A stretch of 24,966 nucleotides of DNA from a virus. Under the pieces are notes generated by a model, which did no database searches, was not told the DNA's origin, and was given only the letters and a program-made list of their open reading frames with translations. The position numbers and the translations under genes are program-made. Shown here one piece after another: positions 1 through 20,933 of this stretch; position 1 is the first letter of the stretch; each line of letters begins with the position of its first letter. Location of the stretch: IMG/VR virus record IMGVR_UViG_3300017757_000141, positions 1 through 24,966 of that record, one strand, 5' to 3'.

Positions 1-1470
1 AAAAAGTTTACACGTAAGAAGATGAGAGAACGTGAGGAGCAAGATGATATGGAAGGACTGGATACTACTATAGATTGGAAAAATACAGGTGATAATAGTT
101 ATGATGGTGAAAAGCTTTCTCTATTAGTACATGATGAGTCTGGCAAGTGGGAGAGACCTGATAATATAAAAAATAATTGGAGAGTTACGAAAACTTGTTT
201 AAGGCTAGGTAGTAGAATTATAGGTAAGTGCATGATGGGATCTACTTCCAATGCGTTAGACAAAGGAGGTGATAATTTTAAAAACTTATATAACAACTCA
301 GATGTTAAAAAAAGAAACCGCAATGGACAGACTAAGTCAGGATTATATTCTTTGTTTATCCCTATGGAGTGGAACTACGAAGGATTTATTGACGAATATG
401 GACAACCCGTGTTTAATACTCCTAAACAAGAAGCATTTGATCCACAAGGAGTAGAGATAGATTACGGAGTTATAGATCATTGGAATAATGAAGCGGATGG
501 CTTAAAAGATGACCAAGACGCTTTAAATGAATTTTACCGCCAGTTTCCTAGAACAGAAGAACACGCTTTTAGAGATGAGACCGGTAATAGCTTATTTAAC
601 CTAGTAAAAATATATGAGCAAATAGATTACAACGAGGGAAATAGAAACTCATCTGTATTAACAATAGGTAACTTTCAATGGACAAATGGAGTTAAGGATA
701 CTCAAGTAGCGTTTAACCCAGACCCAAACGGTAGATTTAGCGTAAGCTGGGTTCCTGGTTTAAAATTACAAAATAACGTTATATTAAAAAATGGCGTAAA
801 ATATCCAGGAAACGAACACATGGGAGCATTTGGATGTGACTCGTACGATATATCAGGAACAGTTGATGGTACTGGATCAAAAGGAGCTTTACATGGTTTA
901 ACTAAATTCTCTATGGAAGATGCTCCAGCTAATACTTTCTTTTTAGAATACATAGCTAGGCCTCAAACTGCGGACATATTTTTTGAAGATGTTTTAATGG
1001 CACTAGTTTTTTACGGCATGCCACTATTAGCAGAGAATAATAAACCAAGACTATTATACTATTTAAGAAGAAGAGGATACAGAGCGTTTAGTATGAACAG
1101 GCCAGATAAAATTTGGAATAAACTATCAGTTGCAGAAAAAGAAGTAGGTGGAATACCAAACTCAAGCGAAGATATAAAACAATCTCACGCTGCCGCAATT
1201 GAAATGTATATCAATGACCACGTTGGCTTACTTCGAGATGGCACTTATGGCGCAATGTATTTTAACGAGACGTTAAACGATTGGTCAAAGTTTGATATAA
1301 ACAAAAGAACAAAGCATGATGCTTCAATAAGTTCTGGCTTAGCAGTAATGGCCTGTAACAGACACTTGTATAGACCAAACCCAGAAATACAAAAAACACC
1401 AGTTAACCTCACAATAAATAAATACAATAACAAAGGATTTGAATCAACAATAATAAAAAATAAAATATGA
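1..1470 (+). CDS. terL: Terminase large subunit, C-terminal part (5' end outside window)
   Basis: DNA-packaging motor and nuclease. The frame is open from base 1, so the gene starts upstream; the ATG at 22 is internal. Counting from that ATG, a Walker B segment with the catalytic Asp-Glu pair (LLVHDESGKW, about residues 35-43) is followed by a motif-III-like stretch ending GSTSNA (about 73-78). A FPRTEEHAF sequence (175-183), typical of the end of the ATPase domain, follows. The nuclease part has a probable first metal Asp in GCDSYD (271-276) and a probable last one in HDASISSGLAVMA (432-444), where terminases often carry an Asp-Ala plus small hydrophobics. The Walker A segment is missing because it lies outside the window. 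The stop overlaps the portal start as ATGA (1467-1470), suggesting coupled translation. TerL identity is strong; exact catalytic residues are inferred. Confidence 0.9.
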   Translation, partial: KKFTRKKMREREEQDDMEGLDTTIDWKNTGDNSYDGEKLSLLVHDESGKWERPDNIKNNWRVTKTCLRLGSRIIGKCMMGSTSNALDKGGDNFKNLYNNSDVKKRNRNGQTKSGLYSLFIPMEWNYEGFIDEYGQPVFNTPKQEAFDPQGVEIDYGVIDHWNNEADGLKDDQDALNEFYRQFPRTEEHAFRDETGNSLFNLVKIYEQIDYNEGNRNSSVLTIGNFQWTNGVKDTQVAFNPDPNGRFSVSWVPGLKLQNNVILKNGVKYPGNEHMGAFGCDSYDISGTVDGTGSKGALHGLTKFSMEDAPANTFFLEYIARPQTADIFFEDVLMALVFYGMPLLAENNKPRLLYYLRRRGYRAFSMNRPDKIWNKLSVAEKEVGGIPNSSEDIKQSHAAAIEMYINDHVGLLRDGTYGAMYFNETLNDWSKFDINKRTKHDASISSGLAVMACNRHLYRPNPEIQKTPVNLTINKYNNKGFESTIIKNKI

Positions 1471-3872
1471 GAGACTCTCACGTTAATTTTCCCTCTCAAG
1501 CAGTTAGTGATTTAGAAAAGCTAAGTGACGAGTATGGTTTAAAAGTTGCTAAAGCAATAAAGCAAGAATGGTTTACGGATACTACAAGTAGATTTAATAA
1601 CAATCTTAATAGCTTTCACAAACTTAGATTATATGCCAGGGGAGAACAGCCTATACAAAAATACAAAAATGAATTATCAATAAATGGTGATCTATCTTAT
1701 TTAAACTTAGATTGGAAACCTGTTCCAATAGTGCCAAAGTTTGTTGATATCGTTGTTAATGGCATGTCACAAAGAAGTTACGAAATAAACGCTTTTTCAC
1801 AAGACCCAGCTGGTGTAAGCAAGAGAACTGAGTATATGGAATCCGTGCTTAGAGATATGAGGACAAGAGAGTTTAACGATGCTGCTAAATCTAGTTTTGA
1901 TATTGATTTATATGAAAATGATAAAGAAACGCTACCTGACTCAGAAGAGGAATTAAAATTGCACATGCAGCTCAACTACAAGCAATCTGTAGAAATAGCA
2001 GAAGAACAAGCTATAAACGTGTTAATGCAAAACAGCGACTACGATTTAGTAAGAAGAAGATGTCTGTATGATTTAACAACAATAGGTATAGCATCTACAA
2101 AAACCACATTTGACTGGCATGATGGTGCAAAATTAGAATATGTAGATCCAGCTAATTTGGTTTATTCACATACTGAATCGCCATACTTTGATGATATATA
2201 TTATGTTGGAGAGATTAAAGAAATACCTATAAACGAATTAGCTGCTGAGTTTGAACACTTAACAGAATCTGAAATAGAAGAAATAGTTAAAAAATCTGGA
2301 ACTCCATTTGATGGATATAATTCTAGAAAAGTAACTAGTGATAAAAACAAAGTTCAAGTTTTGTATTTTAATTATAAAACTCACATGAATGATGTTTATA
2401 AACTAAAAAAGTTAGCTACTGGAGGTGAGAAGGTTATTGAAAAAGATGATACGTTTAATCCACCAATAGAGAACATGGAAGGAGATTTTAGCAAATTAGA
2501 AAGAGTTGTTGAGTGTTTATATGAGGGCGTTTATCTTCCAGGTTGTAATAAACTTTTAAAATGGGGAATGGCTGACAACATGATGAGATCAGACTCTGAT
2601 TTTGGTACAGTTAAAATGAACTACCAAATTGTTGCGCCTAGAATCTACGAAGGTAGAATAGAATCACTAGTCGGTAGAATAACAGGCTTTGCTGATATGA
2701 TTCAATTAACTCATTTAAAGTTGCAACAAGTAATGGCACGTATGGTACCAGATGGTGTTTATTTAGATGCTGATGGTTTAGCTGAAATAGATCTTGGCAA
2801 CGGAACAAACTACAGTCCGCAAGAAGCTTTAAACATGTTTTTCCAAACTGGTTCTGTTATTGGTAGAAGCTTCACATCTGAAGGAGACATGAATCCTGGG
2901 AAAATTCCAATTCAACAAATACAAAATGGCTCTGGAGGAAACAAAATACAAAGTCTTATCACCACGTATAACTATTATATGCAGATGATAAGAGATACAA
3001 CTGGGCTTAACGAAGCTAGAGATGCTAGTACTCCAGATAAAAACGCTTTAGTTGGTATTCAAAAGCTAGCAGCGGCTAATTCTAACACGGCGACAAGACA
3101 TGTGCTTCAATCAATGCTATACTTAACAGCTAGAGGAGCGGAGTGTTTATCTTTACGTATATCAGATATTGTAGAATACTCTCCAACAAGAGACGCTTTT
3201 GTTAATGCTATAGGTGCTCACAACGTGGCAGTGCTAGAAGAGATAAAAAACTTACACTTATATGATTTTGGTATATTTATAGAACTAATGCCAGATGATG
3301 AAGAAAAACAATTGTTAGAAAATAACATACAGATGGCTCTACAACAACAAACGTTAGACCTAGATGATGTTATAGACTTAAGAAATGTTAGAAACGTAAA
3401 ACTAGCCAACCAGTTGCTTAAGGTTAAAAGAAAAAAGAAAATGGAAAGAGATCAGGCTATGCAGCAGCAAAACATCCAAGCTCAAGCTCAAGCTAATACT
3501 CAGCAGCAACAAGCCTCGGCTCAAATGGAGGTTCAAAAAAATCAAGCAAAAACACAGTCTGAAATTCAATTAGAACAAACAAGAAGTCAATTAAAAACTC
3601 AATACTTGCAAGATGAAATTGTAGCTAAAAAAGAACTAATGCAGTTTGAGTTTGAGTTAAACTCTAGAATGAAAGAAATGGAAATGTCGGTTAAATCTCA
3701 GGACAACGCGATGAGTGAAAACAGAAAAGACCAGAGAGTTGATAGGCAAGCTGGTCACCAAAAACAAATGATACAACAAAGAAAACAGGGTGAACCCACT
3801 AAAAAATTCGAATCTTCAGGTAATGATATAGTTACAGGAGGTGCTAACATGAGTGGTTCTCTTAATATTTAA
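1467..3872 (+). CDS. Portal protein (P22-type, with long C-terminal coiled coil)
   Basis: Dodecameric ring at one capsid vertex through which TerL drives DNA and on which the tail is built. It lies directly after terL and overlaps it by four bases. The 801-residue length fits the large portals of the P22 group (P22 gp1 is 725). Near the N-terminus is RLYARGEQPIQKYKN (about 54-68), then LDWKPVPIVPKFVDIVVNGM (81-100), a helix-turn pattern often seen in podovirus portals. Residues about 652-775 are almost only Gln, Lys, Glu and Ala with a predicted coiled coil, which would suit the barrel that P22-like portals extend into the head. The start is fixed by the ATGA overlap; no Shine-Dalgarno sequence is present. 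A short CAAGCT triple repeat (3477-3494) encodes part of the Gln-Ala run. Confidence 0.85.
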   Translation: MRDSHVNFPSQAVSDLEKLSDEYGLKVAKAIKQEWFTDTTSRFNNNLNSFHKLRLYARGEQPIQKYKNELSINGDLSYLNLDWKPVPIVPKFVDIVVNGMSQRSYEINAFSQDPAGVSKRTEYMESVLRDMRTREFNDAAKSSFDIDLYENDKETLPDSEEELKLHMQLNYKQSVEIAEEQAINVLMQNSDYDLVRRRCLYDLTTIGIASTKTTFDWHDGAKLEYVDPANLVYSHTESPYFDDIYYVGEIKEIPINELAAEFEHLTESEIEEIVKKSGTPFDGYNSRKVTSDKNKVQVLYFNYKTHMNDVYKLKKLATGGEKVIEKDDTFNPPIENMEGDFSKLERVVECLYEGVYLPGCNKLLKWGMADNMMRSDSDFGTVKMNYQIVAPRIYEGRIESLVGRITGFADMIQLTHLKLQQVMARMVPDGVYLDADGLAEIDLGNGTNYSPQEALNMFFQTGSVIGRSFTSEGDMNPGKIPIQQIQNGSGGNKIQSLITTYNYYMQMIRDTTGLNEARDASTPDKNALVGIQKLAAANSNTATRHVLQSMLYLTARGAECLSLRISDIVEYSPTRDAFVNAIGAHNVAVLEEIKNLHLYDFGIFIELMPDDEEKQLLENNIQMALQQQTLDLDDVIDLRNVRNVKLANQLLKVKRKKKMERDQAMQQQNIQAQAQANTQQQQASAQMEVQKNQAKTQSEIQLEQTRSQLKTQYLQDEIVAKKELMQFEFELNSRMKEMEMSVKSQDNAMSENRKDQRVDRQAGHQKQMIQQRKQGEPTKKFESSGNDIVTGGANMSGSLNI
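3477..3494 (+). repeat. Short tandem hexamer, (CAAGCT)x3, inside the portal gene
   Basis: Three in-register copies of CAAGCT encode Gln-Ala dipeptides in the portal's coiled-coil tail. Such units can change copy number by replication slippage without breaking the frame. It is probably a by-product of Gln/Ala-rich coding. Confidence 0.5.
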
Positions 3873-5103: not shown

Positions 5104-6573
5104 ATGGCAATTACAAGTTTTGGGGGTTCTACTCCCGGTATGGCAGCTGCTCCACAGAAGCAAACTCTCGTACAAAACTACATAGACTTCACAAGCGGAG
5201 CCGGTAACGACTGGTCTCAGCAATACCTGCCTGACTTAATGGCTCAAGAAGCTGAGGTTTACGGAAAACGTACTATCTCAGGTTTTTTAGCTCAAGTCGG
5301 TGCTGAAGAAGGAATGAGTGCAGATCAAGTTATTTGGTCTGAACAAGGTAGATTACATTTAGCTTACATAGCTAAGTGGGTATCTTCAGGTATTATTCAA
5401 ATAGAAAAGGACATCGATGGCAATGCTCTTGCAGCTCAAGACGCTCACGGTATTAGAGTAGGTGATACAGTATTAGTATCTTCTGCTACTAAAACAGTAA
5501 GAGGTTACGTAAACACAGTTGCTGCTGGTGCTAACCAAATTACAGTTTTACCTTATTCAGGAGCTGCATTAGACGCTGCTTCATTAGGTACTCCTGGTAC
5601 AGACCCTGAAAAGCTAAGAGTATTAGTTTACGGTTCTGAAGCTGTAAAAGGAACACTTGGTAAAGCTGGCGCTAACAAGCCTAGATTCAAATCACTATCT
5701 AACAAACCAATCATTTTAAAAGACAAGTATGAGATTTCAGGATCTGATGCCGCTCAAATTGGTTGGGTTGAGATAACTGGTGAAGACGGGCAAAATGGTT
5801 ACTACTGGTATCTAAAAGCAGAAGGTGAAACTAGATCAAGATTTGGCGACTACTTAGAGATGTCAATGGTTGAATCTGAAAAAGCTGACACGCTTTCTGC
5901 AATACATGACAATCCTATTTATGCTGCGGGTGGTACTCATCCAGCTACTAGTCCTGGTACTGAAGGTTTATTTTCAGCTATTGAGACTAGAGGTCACGTA
6001 TCAACTGGTGTATCTGGTATTAACGCTGCTACTGATTTAGCAGAGTTTGATGCTATGTTAGCTAAGTTTGACGAAAACGGTGCTATTGAAGAAAATATGA
6101 TGTTTATTGATAGAGCTACAAGCTTAGCAATGGATGATATGTTAGCTTCAATGAATTCTTACGGAGCTGGTGGTACTTCTTATGGAGTATTCGACAACTC
6201 AGAAGATATGGCACTTAACTTAGGTTTCTCAGGATTTAGACGAGGTTCTTATGACTTCTACAAATCTGACTGGAAATACTTAAATGACAAAGGAACTCGT
6301 GGTGCATTAAACGATACTGTTAACGCTATTAGAGGTGTTATGGTACCAGCTGGTGTAACTTCAGTTTATGATGAGTCATTAGGTAAAAACCTAAAGCGAC
6401 CATTCTTACACGTAAGATACAGAGCTTCTCAAACAGAAAGTAGAAAAATGAAAACTTGGACTACTGGTTCTGTTGGAGCCGTTACTTCCGATCTTGATGC
6501 AATGGAGATGCATTTCTTATCTGAGAGATGTTTAGTTGTACAAGGAGCAAATAACTTTATGTTATTGAAGTAA
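5104..6573 (+). CDS. Major capsid protein
   Basis: Main shell protein, presumably with the HK97 fold common to tailed phages. It follows portal and scaffold, is 489 residues long, lacks long charged tracts, and shows the regular codon choice (many GGT, GCT, ACT) expected of a highly made protein. Residues about 114-152 (DTVLVSS ... ITVLPYSG) look like a small beta-domain inserted in the shell fold. FIDRATSLAMDDML (about 338-351) and GFRRGSYDFYKSDW (about 380-393) resemble the central-helix and surface segments of capsid proteins, but I cannot assign a subfamily. It is followed 11 bases later by an intrinsic terminator, which would end transcripts after this gene. The start has an A/T leader (TTAATT) directly before the ATG. 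The head role is strongly supported by synteny. Confidence 0.82.
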   Translation: MAITSFGGSTPGMAAAPQKQTLVQNYIDFTSGAGNDWSQQYLPDLMAQEAEVYGKRTISGFLAQVGAEEGMSADQVIWSEQGRLHLAYIAKWVSSGIIQIEKDIDGNALAAQDAHGIRVGDTVLVSSATKTVRGYVNTVAAGANQITVLPYSGAALDAASLGTPGTDPEKLRVLVYGSEAVKGTLGKAGANKPRFKSLSNKPIILKDKYEISGSDAAQIGWVEITGEDGQNGYYWYLKAEGETRSRFGDYLEMSMVESEKADTLSAIHDNPIYAAGGTHPATSPGTEGLFSAIETRGHVSTGVSGINAATDLAEFDAMLAKFDENGAIEENMMFIDRATSLAMDDMLASMNSYGAGGTSYGVFDNSEDMALNLGFSGFRRGSYDFYKSDWKYLNDKGTRGALNDTVNAIRGVMVPAGVTSVYDESLGKNLKRPFLHVRYRASQTESRKMKTWTTGSVGAVTSDLDAMEMHFLSERCLVVQGANNFMLLK

Positions 6574-9460: not shown

Positions 9461-12400
9461 ATGCCAGAAATTAAAAATACTTTCACTGGTGGCAAGATGA
9501 ACAAAGATCTCGATGAGAGACTTGTCAAAAATGGTGAATATAAACATGCTTTAAACATACAGGTCAGAACAACCGACGGTGATAGCGAGGGTAGTGGTGA
9601 TGCTGGCACGGTCCAAAATATACTTGGTAATAAGGAGGTTGGTAGTGTAAATTTACAATACTGGATGAACATGGTGACTGATGATACCTACGCAACAGGT
9701 GGTGCATTGCTTAATGAGGGCTCATCTTTTATGCCTAGATGTGTTGGTAGTGTTTCTGATGAAAAAAATGATGCTGCCTATTTTTTCTTTGGTACACATG
9801 ATCCAAAGCTTGAATTTTCTCTATGGAATTATGATGAAAACATTAGGTGCTACGCGGATACAATAATACAACAAAGTGTAACAACCTCATCGCAGGTAAC
9901 TACTCCCGTGGTCGTTGATGTTTGGGCTGTTCACGCTAGGGTCTCGAGCCATATACCTGGTATATCTCAAGGTGGAAATACACCTTATCAAAACACAGGT
10001 TGGTCAGAGATTGTTGTTTCAGACGAACTAGCAAGTAAGCTTAGGCCTGAGATGGTGATGAAGATTATAAACAACGCAGGTGATGTTACCGTTGGTAATG
10101 CTATTATAAAAGCTGTAAATGGCACAACTATATTATTCGATGAATCTTTTTTTATCACGCTAACGCCAAACACAGCTGCTTACGTAGTATTTGAAGCTGA
10201 AAAAGTTTTAAACTTTCCTAGCGCATCTGCGTTTTCAGATGTTATTACTGGTATAAATATTATAGATGATTTATTAATGTGGACAGATGGTCGAACTGAA
10301 CCTAAGAAAGTGCATGTGAGTAGATCTATAGCCGGTACAAATATAGGTGGAGTTATAAACGACGGTACAATACACACAAAGCTTTATTTAAATAACACTA
10401 ATGGTTCTGGTTACGTAGATGCTAACACACTTTATAGCAACTTAGATAATGGGGGATTACAGAATGGATCAGGTATTAATTCTTATTTAAAAGAAGAACA
10501 CTTAACTGTACTAAGAAGATCACCTAAGCTTCCACCAACATTAGAAATGAGCCACGTTGATAGGCCTGGTATTACAGATACAACTTGCACATACTCTTTC
10601 ACAAACGGCCAAGCTGACTCTGATATGAATACTATTAGTGTCGGTGATATTAGAGAGATTAACTTAGATACATCTGATACAAACTACAGACCAAATGACA
10701 TTTTGGTTTTCACGTCTCAAAATTCTCTAGGTAATATTAATTATAAAGCTAAGTTTATAGCTTACGTAAGTGCTACAGGAGAGCAGGTGTTAACTTCAAC
10801 TGGGATTATATTAGTTGAAATGGTTACTGTTATAGAAGATCCAAACGTTCAAAACGATTGGAATGTTAGTCTAGAAGCTAGAAAGCCTTTATTTGAATTA
10901 AAATTAGTTAGATTTGGATATAGATACAAATACAATGATGGTGAGTATTCTTCTTTTTCGCCATGGTCTGAACTAGCTTTTTTACCAGACGAGTTTGATT
11001 ATAAAATTAGTAAAGCCTACAATCTAGGTATGGTCAACACCGTGAGGCAACTTGTTATAAAAGATTTTATTCCTTATAATATACCATTAGATGTTGTTAG
11101 CGTCGATATATTATATAAAACAACAGATTCTTCTAGTGTGTATATCGCTGAAACAGTTGACATAGACACACCGCAATGGAATAATTTTACACCTAGTGGA
11201 GTAGATGACATAGATATTAAAACAGGTCAACTATCCATTACATCAGAAATGATACATCGTGTATTACCAGAAAATCAAGTAACAAGAGCTTGGGACAACG
11301 TTCCAAGGTATGCTAACGCTCAAGAAGTAGTGGGCAACAGATTAGTGTTTGGTAACTATGTTCAAGGATATAATTTATCTAGTAAATTAAATCTAATACA
11401 AAGCGTTAATAGTGATAATATAGAAGCTAATGAAGCAACACAGCCACCACATAAATCACTAAAATCAATTAGGGATTATAAAATTGGTATGGTATTTGGA
11501 GATAAATATGGTAGAGAAACACCCGTTATTTCACCTGGATACATATTAGACTCTGACGACGCGGAAAATACTATTGACTCAATAGTTGATGGTTTAAATG
11601 TAGACAAAACTTTATGTGCTAACTCTAATAGTTTTCTTGTTCAACAAAATTGGGAGGAAAATAGTACTCCTGACAACTGGATAGATTATGTTAGATATTA
11701 TGTAAAAGAAACATCCAACGAATATTATAACTTAGTTATGGACAGATGGTATGACTCTGGAGATAATACTGTTTGGCTTTCTTTTAACTCTGCTGACAGA
11801 AATAAAGTTGATGAGGAAACTTATTTAATACTTAAAAATAAGTTTGGCTCTCACGAACCTGTTTTACAAAAAGCTAGATATAAAATTATAGCAATAGAAA
11901 ATGAAGCGCCTGATTTTATAAAAACAGAGTACAGTGAATTAGGCGTACTTGGTGAGGTTACAGATGCTGATACAGGCGCTGGAGTTGGTGGTTTAGATAC
12001 GGTTGATGATAATGGTAATGATTATGTTTTAGATGTTTGGCCAACTGCAACTAATGCTAACAATGCTGCGCCTAGCGGCTGGATAAATGGAACTTCTTTT
12101 AGAATTGACATAGGAAAATGGGATGCAATTTTTAATTCAACAGACGAATACATATACGGGCAAGAAATAGAAGGTAATGTAGAAATGAGGATAGTTGGTA
12201 AATCATGGAATGGTGACACAACTCCTAACACCAATTTGTATACTCAAAAAACAGCATGGAAAAGATTGACTAACGTTAGAAAAACTGATAACGGTACCTT
12301 TGTTGAGGTTTCTTACATTTCAGCTTTTGGTGCTGAGTGCGACTTTTTTAATATTTGGAGCAACTCTACTGACGCGAGTCCATATCCAGTTGATGTTAAC

Positions 12401-15400
12401 GATAACCCACTAAACATTGCTGAGTTAATTTATGAAGTTGAGTTTAGACAAGGTATAGTAAAAAATAGACCAGAGTTTGATGGTAAATTTTTTGTAAAAA
12501 TAGAAGCCGATGAGGTTTTAAGATCCAACGTTCTAGTTGTTGGTGGACCCGGTTACGATTGGTCTAATATGGGAACATATCAATTATCTTATATCTCCAG
12601 TACAGAAACTAATGAAGCATCGTATGGACCACGCGCGGGAGACACAGCTGTTTTTGATCAGGCTTCCATAGTGGCAGCATCACCAGAAAACCGTTGGTAT
12701 CACAACGCTTTTAGAACAATTACAACTTACGGTTATGACGGTAGCTCTTGGGTTGGTGGCCAAGGTGTTTGGTCTGGAATAGCTGGAGAAAACTTTTTTG
12801 AAGAAGGAGTGCTTCAGTACTGTGGTGATGGAAATCATTTTAGCGATACAGATACATATAACCCTATAAACAATAATGGTGGTACTGCTGGCATGACTAC
12901 AGAGCACGGAATGGCTTGGTCAACTGGTATTCCTGGTGGAACACCCCCTTCAGGTGGAAACCCAGGAGGATGGCCTTCGCCTAATTGCTGTACTAGTATA
13001 AAAAGTGACGGGCAAGGCTTGTTTAGTTATTTGTCGTTCGAAGATGGAGGATCTCTAGACACTGGTGGTGTATATAGTACTGACGTGCCTTATTCCAATG
13101 TTGGTATTAGTTCTAATTTTGGGTTTGGGTATGACGGTGAAACTGTATATCAAAGTTTTGAAAATTCAGGAATACTAAATATGAATGCTAGCGCCGAGTT
13201 TAATCAAGCCGCTAATTATGGAGTGTTTGGCTCTTGTACTTGGGGTCACAATTGGATGACATCTCTTTTTTGGCAATCCTATGGTGGTATAGACAAGGGG
13301 CAAACAGAGGGTAATAACCTTGCTTTTATAGACGGAGCTAAAGCTAGGCATTTTAACTGGGGAGCGGCAACCAATCAAGATGGCACCCAATATCAAACAG
13401 AAAGTAGTAATTTCTATAAACCAAAATCTATAGGTGGAGAGCAGGATAATGGTACATTTAATGAAATGGTTATATCTAGACTTCATGACGCGACTGGGGA
13501 TTTAACTAATAGCACAGCGGAAGTATTAATGGACCTCTTAGATGATGCTGGTGGTGCTCATTTTAGAATAGGTAACGATCCTAATATATATAAGGTTTAC
13601 CAAGTTATAAAACCAGATCAAGATCCTAGAAACTTTTCTCAAGGTAGCACAAGGGCTTATAAATTAGACATAGGTAATAATGATTATAACGTTTGGTACC
13701 CGACAAAACTTATTGAAAATTGTAAGGCGTGCGGAGATGGGCTACCACATAAACACCCTGAAGATCAGGCTGGTAATATAGTTGATGCTTCGACTTGGGG
13801 AGATGGTGGCAGTTACTACGATGGTTTTTTCTTCGACCAAACAAATGGTTGTAAAAGAAAGTCAATGTTGATTAGATTTAGGAAGGTTAATCCTAGTAAT
13901 GGTGTAGACATGAACGACGAGGCTAATAATCCTATAGGATTTAATTTAGATTCTGACGGTTATGATCCAAGAGGTCATTTATATCATGACGGCAGGAATA
14001 GTATTGACATAACAATTCTAAAGCCAAGAATAGTATCATATGGTGATGATTCGCCGATTAATGATTTAGGTGCTTGTTGGGAAACAGAGCCAAAAGATGA
14101 TTACGATTTAGACTTATACTATGAAGCATCAGGTTCTATACCAGTAAAGCTAAATAGAGATAATGCATTTAATTTTGCACCTATTAATTCTAAGGTTTCT
14201 ATACAAAGAGTTCAAAATGGAGTTTTACAAGAATACTCTATGCAAGGATCTAGGTTCGGCCATAAAGTGGCTAACATAGATATGGCTAGCAATAACAATG
14301 CGGCTATAATCACTGTAGTTTCGCATGGCCCCGGTAGCACTATAAATCCAACTTACACTATTCACAACGGTCCCTTTGACCAAGACGGTGGGTACGATGC
14401 AAATATGGTTCTCTCGGAATATGACATAGCCCCTAATGACATTATAGTGTTTACACACCCTAATGGAACTAAAACTAGATCCAAGGTTACTTCTTACTAC
14501 GAGCCAATTGATGACTCTCCATCGGGAGCATTTAATGATATATCATTGTCAGATACTGACAACGGTGTAACCTCAGGACCTAAAGCTTTTAGGGCAACAT
14601 CAGTAAATGCTGGGCCCACTGGTTTTTACGGTATAGAAATAAACGTTTGGAATAACGAAGTTCAACTACCGTGGTTTAACTGTTACTCATTTGGTAATGG
14701 TGTTGAGTCAGATAGAATAAGAGATGATTTTAATGCTCCACAGATAGACAACGGCGTTAAAGTTTCTACAACGTTTTCTGGTTATCAGCAAGAAAGAATA
14801 AAAAGTGGAATAATATATTCTGGTATATATAACTCAACATCTCAAGTTAATGATTTGAATGAGTTTAACATGGCAGAAAAAATAACAAAAGAGCTAAATC
14901 CTAGATATGGTTCTATACAAAGATTTAAAACAAGAGACACAGACATGGTTGTGTTTGCTGAAGATAAAGTTTTAAGATTACTAGCTAACAAAGATGCGGT
15001 GTTTAACGCTGATGGAAATCCTCAGCTAGTAGCATCTAATAGAGTTCTAGGAACACCAGTTCCTTATGCTGGTGATTATGGTATATCTAAAAATCCAGAA
15101 TCATTAGCTTGGGATCAGTACAGAATGTATTTCACTGATAAACAAAGAGGAGCTGTTTTAAGGTTATCTAAAGATGGGTTAACGCCCGTATCAAATGTTG
15201 GTATGAAAAATTGGTTTAGAAAAAATCTTCCAAATACTTTATCTGCAATAGGATCATTTGATATAGTTAATGGTGAATACAATCTATCTTTAAAAATGAA
15301 AAACAACAATAGAATAACTGTTTCTTTTAACGAAGCGTCTAAAGGTTGGGTTAGTTTTAAATCTTTTGTGGCTGACACAGGGTTGTCATTAAGTGGCGAG

Positions 15401-17794
15401 TATTATACCGCTTATGAAAATAAAGTTTGGAAACACCACGATTCTACCGTAGACAGAAACGACTTTTATAACAAGGGTACTGTGAACTCTATGGTAACAA
15501 TGCTATTCAACGAAATGCCCAGTGTTGTAAAGTCTTTTAAAGCTATATCGTATGAAGGTTCTCAGGCTAGAGTTATTCCATTTTTAGGCGAAAGCTTAGT
15601 GGCATACACGGGTAACCCAATTTACGCCCCTGATTATCTTGACGTTCCATCAGTGCCATTCCCGTTTGGGGGAAATAATATTGATGAAAATGATGGAGTT
15701 CCGGATTATCTTGAGCAGTATGTTAACCCTGAAGCTGGTCAAATTATTGGCAGTGAAACAAGTATTGTATCCGTAACAGACAACGAGTACTATAATATAA
15801 CTGGACAGCCTGGGTGGTATTGTTCTGATGTTAAAACAGATTTAGAAAAAGCTAACATAGTAGCATTTAAGAATAAAGAAAACAAATGGTTTAGTGAAAT
15901 AACTGGAAAAGAAGTTTCTATAAACGAGGACTATATAAACACAGATCAATTCACAGTGCAAGGTATAGGTCAAGTTTCTGCGGTACAATATTTAGAGGTT
16001 AACCCACCTGAAGGTGAAGATTGTATACCACCTTGCCCATCAGATTATGTCTGTGTTAATGGTATATGTGAAGAATTTACCGTCGCAATATATGGTTGTA
16101 TGGATGAAAACGACGCCAACTATAATCCCTTAGCAACAGTTGATGATGGTAGCTGCGTTGGCACGGTGTATGGTTGTATGGACTTAATGTCACCCAACTA
16201 TGATCCGCTAGCTATAGAAACTAACGATACTGAAAACTGCCAACCGCTATGTACTGACTGTGTGCCGTACGTCTATGGTTGTATGGACGAAACGGCGTAT
16301 AATTATAATCCAATAGCGACCACAGATGGGTACTGTTACTTTAATGGCCAAATGGTTCCGTGTCCTCAGTCGCAGGTTTTAGACGAAAATAGCCCCAACT
16401 ACAATGGTAGTCAATGGGCTAATCCTTTTACCATGGGCCTAATAGATAATTTTGTTCCAACATACCAAGCTAGTTGTTTATATGAAACTGGCTGCCCAGA
16501 AGGACAATTATTTAGCACGCTCTTTGGTTGTGTAGACGTTGTACTTGGATGTATGGACCCTGGCTTTGTTGAATATAATCCTGAAGCAACTATAGATGAT
16601 GGTAGTTGTGCTATAGGCGTTGGCACCGTGGTTTATGGGTGTACTGATCCAGCAGCTTGCAACTATTTTCAGTATGCAACAGTAAATGATGGTAGCTGTG
16701 AATATCTTACGTGTGTTGGTTGTATGACGCCTGGAGCAATGAATTATAACGAAGCATTAATAAACAATGGTACTATAACTCAACCTTGTGATGATTGTTG
16801 TTTATTTGAAACCCAAGTTGAAGATGAAAATCCTGGTTGCACAGAAGAAGGTTATGAACTTTACGACCCAGAGGCTAGTATTATGTGTATTAACTTATCC
16901 TTCTCAGAATGTTGTGGCTTACCGCTTGAAACTGTATTTGAAGAAACATTGGTTTATGGCTGTATGGACAACGGTGACACGCTCGGTGATAACGTTGAAG
17001 TTTTAAATTATAATCCTAACGCAAATAGTCAGCAAACTAATGGCGTATATGACCCAACTTTATGTCAGTATTCTATATGTGGTTGTACTAATGTAGATGC
17101 ATTTAATTACGATCAAGAGTGGATCAACGGCTTACCAATAAACTACACAGTTATAGACTGTGATTCAACTCCATGTTCAGATACTATTGTTGGTTGTATG
17201 GACGATACTATGTTTAATTTTGATTCAAATGCAAACACACCTGGTGAATGTATACCATTTTACTATGGCTGCATGGAACCAGGTGCAATAAACTACAACC
17301 CATTCGCAAACACTGATGCTCCAGGTTTTAATCCAGTTAGCACCTTACAATTAGTGCTATACTCAAATGACGAAGTTCTATTTGGTAATTACAGTAGTTA
17401 TGATGGAGAGTGTGATTACTGGGTTTATGGCTGCATGGACCCCACGGCGTTGAACTACGCCGGGCCAGGTAATACAGCAGGTGGAGTTGGTGAGATTACA
17501 GATGATTACCCACAAGGAGAGCCTATAGCACTTTCCCCTCCAGCTAATACTCAATATAACCAAAGTTACGAAATAATGAGTCAAGAAGACTGGGAGAACC
17601 CAGCATTTCCTTCTTTCGCAATAACATGGACACCTGCAAATATTATCACTGATAGTGAGATAAGCACCGGTGAAGCTGTGGAATGTGACACATGTAATTG
17701 CTTATACATTGGCGATGGTAACTTACAACTTCAAGTCAGAAACTACCCTGGTGATTCAGAGGCAACGGAGGAAGACGTTGATTACAACGACTAA
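9461..17794 (+). CDS. Giant nozzle-like / tail-hub protein (2777 residues) with C-terminal Cys-rich repeats
   Basis: Probable short-tail nozzle with a large extension. FTGGKMNKDLDERLVKNGEY (about 8-27) has the 'MNxDxxxxxxxxxxY' pattern of podovirus nozzle / stabilisation proteins (T7 gp12, P22 gp10 and crAss-like hubs). Further core-like segments are NRLVFGNYVQGY (626-637), GDKYGRETPVI (680-690), KETSNEYYNLVMDRWY (from 749), NEAPDFIKTEY (814-824), RPEFDGKFFVKI (near 1003) and DQYRMYFTDKQRGAVLRLSK (near 1885). About 1040-1730 is Gly/Asn/Asp-rich and unassigned. It contains Cys-x2-Cys then His-x-His at 1421-1432. An Asp/Asn motif of calcium-binding type (2075-2085) precedes a Cys-rich start (from about 2186) and about twelve Cys repeats (2211-2670). 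Family nozzles are usually 470-1100 residues, so this is exceptional. No frameshift is seen. The tail role is likely; nozzle identity is moderate. Confidence 0.72.
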   Translation: MPEIKNTFTGGKMNKDLDERLVKNGEYKHALNIQVRTTDGDSEGSGDAGTVQNILGNKEVGSVNLQYWMNMVTDDTYATGGALLNEGSSFMPRCVGSVSDEKNDAAYFFFGTHDPKLEFSLWNYDENIRCYADTIIQQSVTTSSQVTTPVVVDVWAVHARVSSHIPGISQGGNTPYQNTGWSEIVVSDELASKLRPEMVMKIINNAGDVTVGNAIIKAVNGTTILFDESFFITLTPNTAAYVVFEAEKVLNFPSASAFSDVITGINIIDDLLMWTDGRTEPKKVHVSRSIAGTNIGGVINDGTIHTKLYLNNTNGSGYVDANTLYSNLDNGGLQNGSGINSYLKEEHLTVLRRSPKLPPTLEMSHVDRPGITDTTCTYSFTNGQADSDMNTISVGDIREINLDTSDTNYRPNDILVFTSQNSLGNINYKAKFIAYVSATGEQVLTSTGIILVEMVTVIEDPNVQNDWNVSLEARKPLFELKLVRFGYRYKYNDGEYSSFSPWSELAFLPDEFDYKISKAYNLGMVNTVRQLVIKDFIPYNIPLDVVSVDILYKTTDSSSVYIAETVDIDTPQWNNFTPSGVDDIDIKTGQLSITSEMIHRVLPENQVTRAWDNVPRYANAQEVVGNRLVFGNYVQGYNLSSKLNLIQSVNSDNIEANEATQPPHKSLKSIRDYKIGMVFGDKYGRETPVISPGYILDSDDAENTIDSIVDGLNVDKTLCANSNSFLVQQNWEENSTPDNWIDYVRYYVKETSNEYYNLVMDRWYDSGDNTVWLSFNSADRNKVDEETYLILKNKFGSHEPVLQKARYKIIAIENEAPDFIKTEYSELGVLGEVTDADTGAGVGGLDTVDDNGNDYVLDVWPTATNANNAAPSGWINGTSFRIDIGKWDAIFNSTDEYIYGQEIEGNVEMRIVGKSWNGDTTPNTNLYTQKTAWKRLTNVRKTDNGTFVEVSYISAFGAECDFFNIWSNSTDASPYPVDVNDNPLNIAELIYEVEFRQGIVKNRPEFDGKFFVKIEADEVLRSNVLVVGGPGYDWSNMGTYQLSYISSTETNEASYGPRAGDTAVFDQASIVAASPENRWYHNAFRTITTYGYDGSSWVGGQGVWSGIAGENFFEEGVLQYCGDGNHFSDTDTYNPINNNGGTAGMTTEHGMAWSTGIPGGTPPSGGNPGGWPSPNCCTSIKSDGQGLFSYLSFEDGGSLDTGGVYSTDVPYSNVGISSNFGFGYDGETVYQSFENSGILNMNASAEFNQAANYGVFGSCTWGHNWMTSLFWQSYGGIDKGQTEGNNLAFIDGAKARHFNWGAATNQDGTQYQTESSNFYKPKSIGGEQDNGTFNEMVISRLHDATGDLTNSTAEVLMDLLDDAGGAHFRIGNDPNIYKVYQVIKPDQDPRNFSQGSTRAYKLDIGNNDYNVWYPTKLIENCKACGDGLPHKHPEDQAGNIVDASTWGDGGSYYDGFFFDQTNGCKRKSMLIRFRKVNPSNGVDMNDEANNPIGFNLDSDGYDPRGHLYHDGRNSIDITILKPRIVSYGDDSPINDLGACWETEPKDDYDLDLYYEASGSIPVKLNRDNAFNFAPINSKVSIQRVQNGVLQEYSMQGSRFGHKVANIDMASNNNAAIITVVSHGPGSTINPTYTIHNGPFDQDGGYDANMVLSEYDIAPNDIIVFTHPNGTKTRSKVTSYYEPIDDSPSGAFNDISLSDTDNGVTSGPKAFRATSVNAGPTGFYGIEINVWNNEVQLPWFNCYSFGNGVESDRIRDDFNAPQIDNGVKVSTTFSGYQQERIKSGIIYSGIYNSTSQVNDLNEFNMAEKITKELNPRYGSIQRFKTRDTDMVVFAEDKVLRLLANKDAVFNADGNPQLVASNRVLGTPVPYAGDYGISKNPESLAWDQYRMYFTDKQRGAVLRLSKDGLTPVSNVGMKNWFRKNLPNTLSAIGSFDIVNGEYNLSLKMKNNNRITVSFNEASKGWVSFKSFVADTGLSLSGEYYTAYENKVWKHHDSTVDRNDFYNKGTVNSMVTMLFNEMPSVVKSFKAISYEGSQARVIPFLGESLVAYTGNPIYAPDYLDVPSVPFPFGGNNIDENDGVPDYLEQYVNPEAGQIIGSETSIVSVTDNEYYNITGQPGWYCSDVKTDLEKANIVAFKNKENKWFSEITGKEVSINEDYINTDQFTVQGIGQVSAVQYLEVNPPEGEDCIPPCPSDYVCVNGICEEFTVAIYGCMDENDANYNPLATVDDGSCVGTVYGCMDLMSPNYDPLAIETNDTENCQPLCTDCVPYVYGCMDETAYNYNPIATTDGYCYFNGQMVPCPQSQVLDENSPNYNGSQWANPFTMGLIDNFVPTYQASCLYETGCPEGQLFSTLFGCVDVVLGCMDPGFVEYNPEATIDDGSCAIGVGTVVYGCTDPAACNYFQYATVNDGSCEYLTCVGCMTPGAMNYNEALINNGTITQPCDDCCLFETQVEDENPGCTEEGYELYDPEASIMCINLSFSECCGLPLETVFEETLVYGCMDNGDTLGDNVEVLNYNPNANSQQTNGVYDPTLCQYSICGCTNVDAFNYDQEWINGLPINYTVIDCDSTPCSDTIVGCMDDTMFNFDSNANTPGECIPFYYGCMEPGAINYNPFANTDAPGFNPVSTLQLVLYSNDEVLFGNYSSYDGECDYWVYGCMDPTALNYAGPGNTAGGVGEITDDYPQGEPIALSPPANTQYNQSYEIMSQEDWENPAFPSFAITWTPANIITDSEISTGEAVECDTCNCLYIGDGNLQLQVRNYPGDSEATEEDVDYND
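16091..17480 (+). repeat. About twelve Cys-rich protein repeats, consensus YGCMD...NYNP.A...DDGSC
   Basis: Units begin at 16091, 16169, 16274, 16544, 16634, 16715, 16832, 16955, 17078, 17189, 17264 and 17426. Clear units are 22 residues: (Y/V)GC(M/T)D, a short spacer, NYNP, A.., and DDGSC. Others are stretched to 35-50 residues by insertions between the tyrosine core and the last Cys. Each unit has a Cys at position 3 and one near the end, fitting one disulfide or metal-linked pair per unit. Between units 3 and 4, the 16337-16543 stretch holds further Cys and one degenerate unit (SPNYNGS). The same 'GC(T/M)DP.A.NYNP.A..DDGSC' repeat is known to me from secreted proteins of Flavobacteria and other marine organisms. 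DNA identity between units is low, so it is an old, diverged array. Confidence 0.9.
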
Positions 17795-17826: not shown

Positions 17827-19077
17827 ATGTCACTAACAAATTTACATGTAAAAAACTGGTTTAAAGATGAATTCACAAACAACTCTAGTACAAGTTTAAT
17901 ACTACCTGTAACAGCTGGTAATGCGTTTATAAGCTCCAGTGGTCAATTAGTTCAAAATGGTGACACTCAATCTTATTTAAACCCGAATGTTTTAGCTAGA
18001 GCTGTTAAGTTGGAAATATCAGTACAAAATGGTGAATATCAAGAAGGGGAAAATGGAGACTGGGGATACTACTCTGTTTGCATAAGAGATATTTCTATAA
18101 GTGGTTATAGTGGGGCATTAAATAAAACTTGGGCCACAAATACTTATCCACAGAATGTTAGCCAGGGAAATCCTCTTTACCACACAGAGTACCAACCAGG
18201 TATAGGTCAAGGTATGCTTTTGTATGGAAGCGCTATTTCAACTTTGAACGATACTCCTTATGATGTGCCAGGTGGATGGATGGGTTCCTCTTATGAGTTG
18301 GGTTATCAGTATGACAACGATGGAAACGTTTTAAATGGAACAGCCAATAGGAGCTACAAAGTGTTTACTCAAGCACAAACAGAATTATATGGAGACCAAT
18401 CTCTTCAAGATTATATTACTGAGTATGGTGGAACCAATAACGCTACTGGTGAAATAGAAGGTTTAGTACCTCAGGGTGACGCAGAGGTATTAACGTGGGA
18501 AGCAACTGATGGTATTACTATAGATGGTTATTGGTACCAACAAATAGAAACAGCTCAAGGCGAGTGGTTTAATCCTGAAACAAATGTTGTTTATGTTGAT
18601 CAAGCACAATCGTCTACTAACCAATGGAATCCAGTTGTTGAAAAGGTAATAATGTTTGATACCATTGGCTTTGAGTACGTGCCAGGCGCGGGTCCGCAGG
18701 GATTGCAAAATAACACAATAGACGTTTTTGTGATATTCAAAGATGTGCAGGCCGCAGGCTACTTAAACTTTGACACAATAAACAACGTGGTAACAAACCC
18801 AACTTATGGTATAACTATAAACACTAGCTTAGCAGACGGTGGTGCTTGGTATGAAACTGGAAACGGTGTTGTTCACATAGACTTTGATGGAGTTCCTAAG
18901 TGGACTAGGGTATTAAACCACCCACCGGAAGACGATAACACCGGAGATACTAACGTTGGTGATACCGGTAATACTACTTTTAATGATACTAACGTTGATG
19001 TAGTCGTAGATGAAAACAGTGAAGATAATGATAGTGGTGTAACAGTTATTCTTGATCCATTTGATATTACGGATTAA
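17827..19077 (+). CDS. Probable virion / tail-surface protein of unknown family (416 residues)
   Basis: I do not recognise a family. The 416-residue protein is rich in Gly, Asn, Tyr and Trp with alternating beta-type sequence and no membrane segment or signal peptide, as in tail fibres and receptor-contact proteins. Residues about 50-330 contain repeated aromatic-glycine stretches (WGYYSVCIRDISISGYSG, GYWYQQIETAQGEWFNPET). The C-terminal 50 residues are an Asp/Asn/Thr-rich tail in which a 13-base direct repeat (18946-18958 and 18985-18997) encodes DTNV twice; such tails may bind calcium or act as a linker. It lies 32 bases after the giant tail gene and 29 before the next gene, so it is probably co-transcribed. 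A host-contact role is inferred. Confidence 0.62.
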   Translation: MSLTNLHVKNWFKDEFTNNSSTSLILPVTAGNAFISSSGQLVQNGDTQSYLNPNVLARAVKLEISVQNGEYQEGENGDWGYYSVCIRDISISGYSGALNKTWATNTYPQNVSQGNPLYHTEYQPGIGQGMLLYGSAISTLNDTPYDVPGGWMGSSYELGYQYDNDGNVLNGTANRSYKVFTQAQTELYGDQSLQDYITEYGGTNNATGEIEGLVPQGDAEVLTWEATDGITIDGYWYQQIETAQGEWFNPETNVVYVDQAQSSTNQWNPVVEKVIMFDTIGFEYVPGAGPQGLQNNTIDVFVIFKDVQAAGYLNFDTINNVVTNPTYGITINTSLADGGAWYETGNGVVHIDFDGVPKWTRVLNHPPEDDNTGDTNVGDTGNTTFNDTNVDVVVDENSEDNDSGVTVILDPFDITD

Positions 19078-19106
19078 TATAATTTAACAATGAAACTTTA
19101 ACAACG

Positions 19107-20513
19107 ATGGCTAAAAAAGACATAAAACTTTTAAGAAAACCCTATACTCATCAGGAAATAGTTGATGGAGCTAATGTTGATTCAACTAGGTATTCTTTGC
19201 AAATTAGTAAAGTGCCCGTTGGTACAACTAAAAGTTTATCTAAAGTTACTTTTAAAGCTGAGGATGGTAAGTACTTTTCAACTTTACCTACTTTAGTTTC
19301 TAATTCTAATAATGTATTTTTAGTTAAACACACTGAAAAGAAAAGTAAAAATAAAGTTATTGAATGCGTATACATATTAAAATATAAAAACGTAGGAGAC
19401 GGCATAACGCCGGATATTTCTTTTGAGTACGAAGCTGTAAAATTTAATGAAACTTGGAGTAGAACACCTATAATAACAGGTTTAAAGGTTTCTAAGAGTA
19501 CAATTAAAAATACTGGAGGTAGAATTAAGATTACAGTAAATGGAGATAAAGGAGCTAAATATGCTATAGCCATAAATGAGAGCCAATTAAATACTGACAA
19601 TACAATAGACCACGCTAGTGATGTGTCTATACTAAAGCCTGGCCAATGGAATAAAGAAATTAATTTCCAAGGTCAACTTGACTTTAAAGTTATTGAGGGC
19701 ACTTTAGATAGAAGCGGAAAAAAAGTTATCACATATTCACTACCATCATCTCTAGTTAAAAGCACTCAAAATACTCACACTAGTAGTAGTACTAAAGCAA
19801 TGAGGTTACAAAGTATAAGAGGTGTTAAAGTCGGTGATAGAATAAAATCTCCATCTATATTAAAAAGTAGTAACATATCTGTCGAAACTATAGTTAATGA
19901 GAAATTCGGTCAAATAACCGCTACTGGAAACGTGACGCTTTCTTCTACTGGAACTTCTGTTCTTTTTGAAAGAGAAAAGATTTTTACTGTAAATTTAATT
20001 AAAGAAAATTATTCAGAACTACCAACGAAGTCTAGTTGTGTGATAAGACAGTTTCACGACCCAATATTGACGATAAATTATAACGTTGGTGGAAGTACCA
20101 CTATAACGCATGTTAACGGCGTTGCTACCTCTGCTGGTGCTGGTATTGACCAAGAGGCTTTTATAGTTGGTAAAGCTGAATCTAGCTCATACGGCATATC
20201 AAAAACTAAATTAAATTATAATAAAAATTATAATTCTTCAGTGTTAGACGTGGACTTAACGCTTACTAGAGGTAGTAATTTTACAACATTTTCTAATCCT
20301 CCTGATATTGAAAACCCAAGAGAAGATATAAACGGTGGATTTACAATGCCTATTACGGATGCTTTTAATAATACATATAGAATGTATATTTGCGGTCTAA
20401 GTACTAGCGCTCTACCTAACACGACAATTCATTTGTATTTTAAAATAAAGGTAACTTCTTGGGGCAGAAGAGATCAAGTTTTAAATTTTGATATAGATAG
20501 TTTATTTAATTAA
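19107..20513 (+). CDS. Probable virion structural protein, beta-rich, unknown family (468 residues)
   Basis: No recognised family. The 468-residue product is Ser/Thr/Lys-rich with long alternating hydrophobic runs (RIKITVNGDKGAKYAIAI 144-161; ITHVNGVATSAGAG about 330-343), suggesting several immunoglobulin-like or beta-sandwich domains in series. The N-terminal 60 residues are polar and basic (MAKKDIKLLRKPYTH). A small domain around 238-300 is separated from the earlier part by a Ser/Thr linker (STQNTHTSSSTK, about 218-229). It has few Cys. Placement between the tail gene and the ejection cassette suits a fibre, a whisker or a capsid-decorating protein. The chosen start at 19107 lies just after a three-codon ORF (19090-19101) that is probably meaningless. 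Confidence 0.62.
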   Translation: MAKKDIKLLRKPYTHQEIVDGANVDSTRYSLQISKVPVGTTKSLSKVTFKAEDGKYFSTLPTLVSNSNNVFLVKHTEKKSKNKVIECVYILKYKNVGDGITPDISFEYEAVKFNETWSRTPIITGLKVSKSTIKNTGGRIKITVNGDKGAKYAIAINESQLNTDNTIDHASDVSILKPGQWNKEINFQGQLDFKVIEGTLDRSGKKVITYSLPSSLVKSTQNTHTSSSTKAMRLQSIRGVKVGDRIKSPSILKSSNISVETIVNEKFGQITATGNVTLSSTGTSVLFEREKIFTVNLIKENYSELPTKSSCVIRQFHDPILTINYNVGGSTTITHVNGVATSAGAGIDQEAFIVGKAESSSYGISKTKLNYNKNYNSSVLDVDLTLTRGSNFTTFSNPPDIENPREDINGGFTMPITDAFNNTYRMYICGLSTSALPNTTIHLYFKIKVTSWGRRDQVLNFDIDSLFN

Positions 20514-20525
20514 TAAAATAATAAT

Positions 20526-20933
20526 ATGGTAATTTTACAATTTAATGGGGGTACGGACAATATATCTGTAGATATTAATGACTTAGTTTATTATGTGGCT
20601 AACGTTCAAAATCAATGGAATAATCAATATATGACCTCAGAGTCTGAGCTACAGACAGGAATATCAACTCACGTTTTTATTGGTCACGTCTCTACAATCA
20701 CAAAGGGTATATCAAACGATGGTACTCCTACTTTTACTATAACAACTGAAGAGCCTTCAAATACAACTATAGTTCCTCCTAGTGAAAATGATTTTATATT
20801 TTTTGTTAAAAATAATAAATCAGAATTAGGTTCAGTTAAAGGTTATTATAGTAGTATAACGTTTCAAAATAATTCTCCAAAAAAAGCAGAACTTTTTGCG
20901 GTATCATTAGAAACAGTTGAATCTAGTAAATAG
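20526..20933 (+). CDS. Small structural-module protein, unknown function (135 residues)
   Basis: A 135-residue protein of a type commonly found next to structural genes of marine phages, without a known role. The N-terminus is beta-rich (MVILQFNGGTDNISVDIND). Two aromatic segments follow: DLVYYVANVQNQW (19-31) and NDFIFFVKNNKSELGSVKGYY (about 87-107). The C-terminus is KKAELFAVSLETVESSK (119-135). A pairing of 'FFVKNN..' with '..KGYY...F.NNS..KAELFAVS' suggests a small all-beta fold ending in an exposed Glu/Ser/Lys tail. It sits 12 bases after the 468-residue gene and 38 before the ejection cassette. It could be a minor tail or decoration protein; no enzyme motif is visible. Confidence 0.65.
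   Translation: MVILQFNGGTDNISVDINDLVYYVANVQNQWNNQYMTSESELQTGISTHVFIGHVSTITKGISNDGTPTFTITTEEPSNTTIVPPSENDFIFFVKNNKSELGSVKGYYSSITFQNNSPKKAELFAVSLETVESSK

Follow-up and report, generated by a model that had tools for sequence, protein, structure and literature searches.

The muzzle of the crAss-like phage phiCrAss001 is a hexamer at the tail tip which contacts the surface; the solved phiCrAss001 virions contain disulfides, which stabilise parts of the tail (PMC10172136). The only solved relative of the repeat described here is a unit of perforin-2, which sits in an EGF-like link between two domains (PMC6989145). Cryophage encodes a T9SS cargo protein; this is a precedent for T9SS-tagged phage proteins only (PMC7468147).

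The window (the whole stretch of 24,966 nucleotides analysed here) is from an uncultured marine crAss-like phage. A single open frame on the plus strand (9461-17794; 2777 aa) encodes a muzzle protein, which would sit at the tail tip. Its body is a crassvirus-type muzzle, or tail-tip nozzle (phrog_14478, E 2.5e-112), in agreement with the sequence-only reading, which had called it a nozzle-like phage protein. The body matched 89 phage records by tblastn and is approximately 29-35% identical to the muzzles of Cellulophaga, Maribacter, Tenacibaculum and Flavobacterium phages; PF25729 (crAss_MUZ_C) gave a weak match (20.7 bits, cut-off 27) covering only 38 residues (aa 1998-2035). The muzzle neighbours align with the related loci L011 and L026, and gene order is as in Cellulophaga phages. 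Capsid-position and tail genes lie directly upstream and large late genes lie downstream. The portal protein is 41-50% identical to portals of Flavobacteriia phages (best records), and in the Calle_1 phage the gene at the position corresponding to the virion structural gene is annotated as major capsid protein. The features of the window are:

1-1470, plus strand: terminase large subunit (phrog_6681, E 3.2e-113)
1467-3872, plus strand: portal protein (phrog_6547, E 8e-141)
5104-6573, plus strand: virion structural protein at the major-capsid position (phrog_13704, E 5.4e-97; relatives in L011 and L026)
9461-15970, plus strand: muzzle body, aa 1-2170, with the conserved motif KEGKWF..(V/I)QGIG at its end (phrog_14478)
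16022-16069, plus strand: Cys-rich linker CIPPCPSDYVCVNGIC preceding the first unit, aa 2188-2203 (L112 and L114 have a similar one)
16091-17482, plus strand: array of approximately 12 DDGSC-type units, aa 2211-2674 (profile, shuffles, alignment with five relatives)
16091-16162, plus strand: best-preserved unit YGCMDENDANYNPLATVDDGSC, aa 2211-2234 (39.3 bits, i-Evalue 7.8e-12 in a six-frame search of the window)
17483-17791, plus strand: C-terminal tail past the last unit, aa 2675-2777, with C2742, C2745 and C2747, ending in LQVRNYPGDSEA (similar ending in L011 and L153)
20526-20933, plus strand: separate 135-aa gene, homologous to the domain which ends the arrayless muzzles of L180, L183 and L185

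Cysteine is strongly concentrated at the end of the muzzle: 44 of the 59 residues lie in aa 2181-2777 and 15 in aa 1-2180 (hypergeometric p 1.7e-18), which confirms the enrichment of about 44 against 16 claimed earlier. The final 567 aa contain 40. The array comprises approximately 12 units with the consensus [IV]YGC[TM]Dx(T)AxNY[DN]PxA[NT]xDDGSC, and shows the DDGSC-repeat pattern GC-x-[DN]...N[YF]...A...[DN][DN]G-x-C in series with Cys about 19 residues apart. This spacing is exactly 19 in the units at aa 2212, 2363 and 2393 and varies in the others. There are 14 'GC' motifs within aa 2212-2657, 12 of which open a recognisable unit; the unit profile finds 10 clear copies in aa 2211-2666, starting at aa 2211, 2237, 2272, 2362, 2392, 2420, 2541, 2578, 2602 and 2656. 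The tail scores 184 with the profile, whereas 1000 shuffles of its residues reached no more than 10.1. The motif GC[MTVLI][DNE] occurs 12 times in the tail (shuffle mean 0.26, maximum 3) and is absent from the first 2180 aa; no other ORF of the window has a DDGSC unit. Profile and shuffles thus bear out the view that about twelve diverged Cys repeats end this giant protein. The extent first given, 16091-17480, fits the array core; the Cys-rich sequence is wider, from approximately 16022 (C2188) to 17701 (C2747).

Among the 69 crAss-like muzzles whose end is readable, an array is present in 26 and absent from 43, with at least six changes (gain or loss) on the muzzle tree. The window falls in a starred clade of seven rows, comprising six arrays and one cut row. 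The array follows the conserved 'VQGIG' motif and starts 11-51 aa past GIG in muzzles where the motif was located. Many arrayless muzzles stop 6-50 aa past GIG. Others bear different tails at this site; adhesin-type domains are present in those of L177 (Big_9/cadherin-like, E 1.1e-14), L181 (fn3, E 7.5e-10) and L156 (a weak SprB match). In a profile search, the terminal beta-domain was a separate gene in 56 loci (23 with an array) and fused in nine (none with an array); phrog_18548 bridges the muzzle C-end and the separate 135-aa protein of the window. The tail diverges faster than the body (66% versus 86-92% for L149/L151). Such repeated gain or loss marks the tail extension as an exchangeable module for host contact. 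Of the isolate muzzles examined, none has a DDGSC array at its end. An assembly artefact was rejected as the source of the array, which is found at the same site in 26 distinct muzzles.

No model in Pfam, PHROG or NCBIfam was above threshold for the DDGSC unit, and nothing relevant was found in literature text on DDGSC or GCTDP; a family model of the repeat would label many unnamed proteins. There are 198 confirmed matches, nearly all in Bacteroidota. In one marine family of Flavobacteriales the unit is found in 49 of 52 genomes; it is found in 3 of 296 genomes sampled across the phylum and in 1 of 299 genomes of another phylum (the anchor only). Flavobacteriales array proteins are mostly exported and often T9SS-tagged, and a T9SS tail is present in 28 of the 66 bacterial array proteins that are complete. 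The earlier attribution of the repeat type to secreted Flavobacteria proteins therefore stands: relatives among Bacteroidetes secreted proteins were looked for and are present. The combination of array and Lcl_C is common to two muzzle tails (L172 and L189) and Flavobacteriales proteins (L172/L056, E 8.9e-14). The repeat is very common in marine Flavobacteriales, and a pore-forming immune protein of animals has a single copy.

The nearest relatives of muzzle units are in other muzzles (53%) rather than in bacteria (30%); recent capture from a host is consequently not demonstrated. The direction of transfer is also blurred by a cyanophage virion protein which bears a DDGSC unit. T9SS export of the muzzle itself was rejected: it has neither a sorting tail nor a signal sequence. 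Its N-terminus, MPEIKNTFTGGKMNKDLDERL, read by eye from the sequence, contains no hydrophobic stretch and no apparent signal peptide; no Por_Secre_tail or CHU_C domain was matched on the window tail or in any of the 26 crAss-like muzzles (0/26).

In a Cys-blind scan, both Cys of the unit were near-invariant (1623 and 1602 of 1624), which makes a co-loss test of the two uninformative. Conserved spacing is 19 residues within units and 5-7 between units. In a strict count, extra Cys occur within 15 residues of the array ends in 74% of cases upstream and 78% downstream, versus 16-17% expected. These end Cys could reflect inter-unit bonds (C2 to the next C1) or capping; they do not argue against intra-unit bonds. 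A model of three units had pLDDT 82 and pTM 0.44, and a Foldseek search of this model against the PDB gave no structural match; AF2 modelling of the full-length tail (678 aa) reached pLDDT 42, and that model was not used. The units are not EGF-like domains, which have a six-Cys pattern: there are two Cys per unit, and no Pfam EGF match was found.

Taken together, the array is rather likely to be an exchangeable, probably disulfide-stabilised stalk or adhesin at the tail tip, which the phage captured from the pool of host surface proteins or exchanged with it. The region would be a modular C-terminal appendage, in which approximately twelve two-Cys mini-domains may form a flexible or rod-like structure. 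It would hang from a muzzle C-terminus which is free because the last beta-domain is encoded separately (20526-20933). A hexameric muzzle, as in phiCrAss001, would give six copies per virion. The mini-domain most likely stems, by capture or exchange, from the exported surface-protein pool of marine Flavobacteriales, and related phages acquire and drop the appendage. Most likely the appendage serves to reach the host surface and hold on to it until the muzzle opens. The array Cys probably form disulfides after lysis; the earlier concern about the reducing cytoplasm is weakened by the disulfides in solved phiCrAss001 virions (PMC10172136). A host-type surface repeat which comes and goes at one fixed tail-tip site offers specific testable proteins in both phage and host.

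The array might instead be a passive spacer, a generic disulfide-stiffened stalk which sets distance or flexibility while flanking domains or other fibres bind; this is somewhat unlikely. Cyanophage S-CAM3 and marine virus AG-345-P14 have 2 or 3 units that separate an N-terminal domain from apparent Ig-like domains, and the S-CAM3 layout, with two units between domains, fits a plain spacer equally well; the perforin-2 unit in its link (PMC6989145) is also in favour of a spacer. However, the arrays of the window and L011 lie near the protein end with only about 50-100 residues after them, which leaves little for a stalk to present, and the array diverges faster than the body. It is improbable that the array docks on, or imitates, host DDGSC surface proteins, with the host repeat coat as putative receptor. 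The repeat is very abundant in likely hosts and is found in three marine phage lineages, but the host link is based on repeat abundance only, and one MAG of the array-rich Flavobacteriales family contains an arrayless muzzle fragment. Quite doubtful, too, is a shared surface-repeat language of marine Bacteroidota phages and their hosts, in which crAss-like phages dock with tail-tip DDGSC repeats on the host DDGSC coat and T4-like phages cause infected cells to export a T9SS-tagged version which masks this coat and blocks rival phages.

Locking of muzzle subunits by intersubunit disulfides, for virion stability, is very unlikely: disulfides do stabilise tail parts of phiCrAss001 (PMC10172136), but 43 of 69 related muzzles have no array and the Cys spacing within and between units points to local bonds. 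Metal binding, by reduced thiolates or by calcium in the Asx-rich loop ANTDDGSC of the consensus, is scarcely credible. Although the muzzle is made in the cytoplasm (no signal sequence), the unit also occurs in perforin-2, which folds in the ER, and in exported proteins, both settings in which oxidised Cys are the norm, and the consensus contains neither His nor CxxC.

In muzzle-family body homology, the muzzle of the window resembles phiCrAss001 gp44 (PMC10172136) and its counterparts in the Cellulophaga phages phi38:1 and phi13:2, and it shares its gene neighbourhood with the two Cellulophaga phages. Unlike the window, phi13:2 (with L180, L183 and L185) keeps in its end region the beta-domain which is a separate gene here. 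Among phage records, the window array had no match in 50,697; only a canonical array retrieved S-CAM3 and AG-345-P14. The S-CAM3 virion structural protein (YP_009321289.1) is fibre-like and has two units, but this Synechococcus phage belongs to Kyanoviridae and its units are internal, ahead of apparent Ig-like domains. T4-like marine phages (L003, L009, L010 and others) also have the DDGSC unit, in T9SS-tagged proteins. They differ in a signal-like N-terminus and a T9SS tail (16 of 24 arrays, in contrast to none of the 26 crAss-like muzzles); the T4-like proteins are therefore cell-exported and not part of the virion. Perforin-2/MPEG1 (PDB 6u2j, 6sb3) has one DDGSC unit in its EGF-like linker (E 1.3e-4); it differs in being an animal immune protein with a single copy between the MACPF and P2/MABP domains and no array. 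The exported proteins of Flavobacteriales share with the muzzle the unit, its 19-residue Cys spacing and, in L172 and L189, the array with Lcl_C; they differ in their apparent signal sequences and, in many cases, a T9SS tail, neither of which the muzzle has.

The window, a virus record of 24,966 bases, carries genes for terminase, portal and tail proteins and a gene at the capsid position, all of the type found in crAss-like phages of Flavobacteriia. Its muzzle, the crassvirus tail-tip nozzle protein, is a 2777-aa product (ORF 9461-17794, + strand) that matches phrog_14478 (E 2.5e-112) and shares ~29-35% identity with its counterparts in Cellulophaga, Maribacter, Tenacibaculum and Flavobacterium phages. 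Of its 59 Cys, 44 fall in residues 2181-2777 (p 1.7e-18). The starts of about twelve two-Cys repeat units are spread over aa 2212-2657, and this tail has a profile score of 184, against 10.1 for the top of 1000 shuffles. The protein is a crassvirus muzzle carrying a host-type repeat appendage. The sequence-only reading, which proposed about twelve Cys repeats forming a host-derived module on a nozzle-like protein, was correct in its counts to within a few; its account of the sequence stands, and that of the kind of module does so for the most part.

The unit consensus is [IV]-Y-G-C-[TM]-D-x-T-A-x-N-Y-[DN]-P-L-A-N-T-D-[DN]-G-S-C (249 units of 26 residues from related loci). Of 1496 units, 1445 have a 19-residue spacing between their two Cys; from the second Cys to the first of the adjoining unit the commonest distance is 7, with 5 or 6 also found. 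A Cys-blind scan gave 1624 matches, which keep the first Cys in 1623 cases and the second in 1602. No model in Pfam, PHROG or NCBIfam matches this DDGSC unit above threshold.

A search of 84,980 species genomes gave 198 confirmed array matches; among the matches listed, nearly all are Bacteroidota, mostly marine Flavobacteriales MAGs. In the family of one matching Flavobacteriales MAG, 49 of 52 genomes are positive (E <= 1e-20), against 3 of 296 drawn evenly over the phylum (1e-12). One 1.7-Mb genome holds 179 array matches. The T9SS tail, a C-terminal sorting domain of exported Bacteroidota proteins, is found on 28 of 66 complete bacterial array ORFs (local profile), and Por_Secre_tail on 42 of 70 ends of bacterial and phage array proteins (Pfam). 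Arrays also occur in MAGs with unexpected labels, namely Woesearchaeota, Rhodobacteraceae and Taylorbacteria (L034, L065, L085). In the phylum sample for the Rhodobacteraceae label only that anchor is positive (1/299), so the bin has likely been contaminated or includes phage/host contigs; for this MAG, a contaminating contig is probable. A MAG of the array-rich Flavobacteriales family contains an arrayless crAss-like muzzle fragment (L192), which hints weakly at the host.

Array proteins of 700-1470 aa are also encoded on ~20 T4-like marine phage contigs. Three of these (L003, L009, L010) carry a Gp23 major capsid gene (E about 1e-63); the viral status of the others comes from the IMG/VR classification only. 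The features are as follows.

L003:9248-13036, L010:8801-12766, L002:8182-12579, L009:5966-10027: large array proteins with apparent signal sequence and T9SS sorting tail
L002:6070-8162, L003:13033-15137, L004:6587-8817, L008:7490-9702, L022:5842-8017: gene set adjoining the array genes
L004:12-4694, L008:976-5592, L022:1-3969: second array ORF (~1300-1560 aa, 5-7 units), near tail-fibre-like genes

An apparent signal sequence is present wherever the start is complete, and 16 of the 24 full-length array ORFs end in a T9SS tail; judged from these sequence signals, the infected cell probably exports or displays the proteins. The adjoining set looks like an envelope-remodelling cassette. It includes a ~350-aa protein with a signal-like N-terminus and the end NKYWNREW.., and an exported-looking protein of ~110-126 aa; L004, L008 and L022 additionally have a nuclease-like protein (..LDRVVDGDTIDA..). 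The second array ORF of these three contigs is possibly a virion protein. A fibre-like virion protein with two or three internal units occurs in cyanophage S-CAM3 and in the single-cell marine virus AG-345-P14. More widely, three phage lineages share a single unnamed repeat with the surface proteins of marine Flavobacteriales.

On the muzzle, the array is an appendage that can be swapped. A muzzle-body search found at least 547 relatives, of which 80 were retained; among 69 with a readable end, the array is present in 26 and absent in 43. A quick-search tree of muzzle N-termini (88 rows, 900 columns) requires at least 6 gains or losses and puts the window in a well-supported clade with arrays. 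In muzzles with the conserved VQGIG motif located, arrays start 11-51 residues past it; many arrayless muzzles end 6-50 residues past it, and some bear different tails. L177 has Big_9/cadherin-like domains in place of the array, L156 has a weak SprB match, and L181 has fn3 domains interspersed within its array.

L180, L183 and L185 have a 120-140-aa domain at the muzzle end, as does phi13:2 in its second muzzle ORF. In 56 loci, the window among them, a gene of its own encodes this domain:

window 20526-20933: terminal muzzle domain as its own gene

Arrays occur in 23 of the 56 loci with a separate domain versus none of nine scored as fused. Only four of the nine are firmly fused, since the domain profile gave only insignificant matches to the other five (phi38:1, Calle_1, Panino, Gundel_1, MW202828). 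The array is therefore attached to a muzzle C-terminus that does not bear this domain. Muzzle end and separately encoded domain are bridged by phrog_18548. Between the muzzle and the 135-aa gene at 20526-20933, window 17827-20513 holds two genes (416 and 468 aa) whose products matched no family; at this place L011 has a pair of similarly sized ORFs and L026 no gene.

An Lcl_C-like domain follows the array in L172 and L189 (E 1.5e-5 in L172) and also lies beside arrays of Flavobacteriales proteins (L172 versus L056, E 8.9e-14; versus L028, 5.5e-13). Given this common architecture, the L172/L189 branch, at least, has likely exchanged sequence with host surface proteins. Recent capture in general is a different matter: in balanced comparisons the nearest relatives of muzzle units are other muzzles (53%), bacteria (30%) and T4-like arrays (17%), and arrays in the window's clade align over their full length at 38-44% identity, which speaks against it. 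One or a few old acquisitions, followed by vertical descent with losses or more swaps, are likely. Repeat abundance suggests that transfer ran from host to phage.

In phiCrAss001 the muzzle forms a hexamer at the tip of the tail, where it presumably touches the cell surface, and disulfides are present in virion tail parts (PMC10172136). By extension, the array would project outward from the muzzle, its Cys would oxidise following lysis, and it may act as a stalk or adhesin. This role is supported by exchange at one site, by the adhesin-type alternatives there and by a tail that diverges faster than the body (body 86-92%, tail 66% for L149/L151; body 65-83%, tail 55% for L172/L189). However, the unit is an internal spacer in S-CAM3 and perforin-2.

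A structure prediction for window units 1-3, built on 91 aligned rows, gives pLDDT 82 and short strands at YGC. Extra Cys lie close to 74-78% of array ends versus 16-17% expected, which favours bonds between adjoining units or end caps. The sole convincing relative found among solved structures is perforin-2/MPEG1 (PDB 6u2j/6sb3), an animal pore-forming immune protein with one near-perfect bacterial-type unit (22 letters, E 1.3e-4) in its EGF-like hinge. Its two Cys are presumably paired with each other in UniProt. This lone unit favours an intra-unit bond. The perforin-2 site is termed an EGF-like link and joins the MACPF and P2/MABP domains (PMC6989145, PMC7593815).
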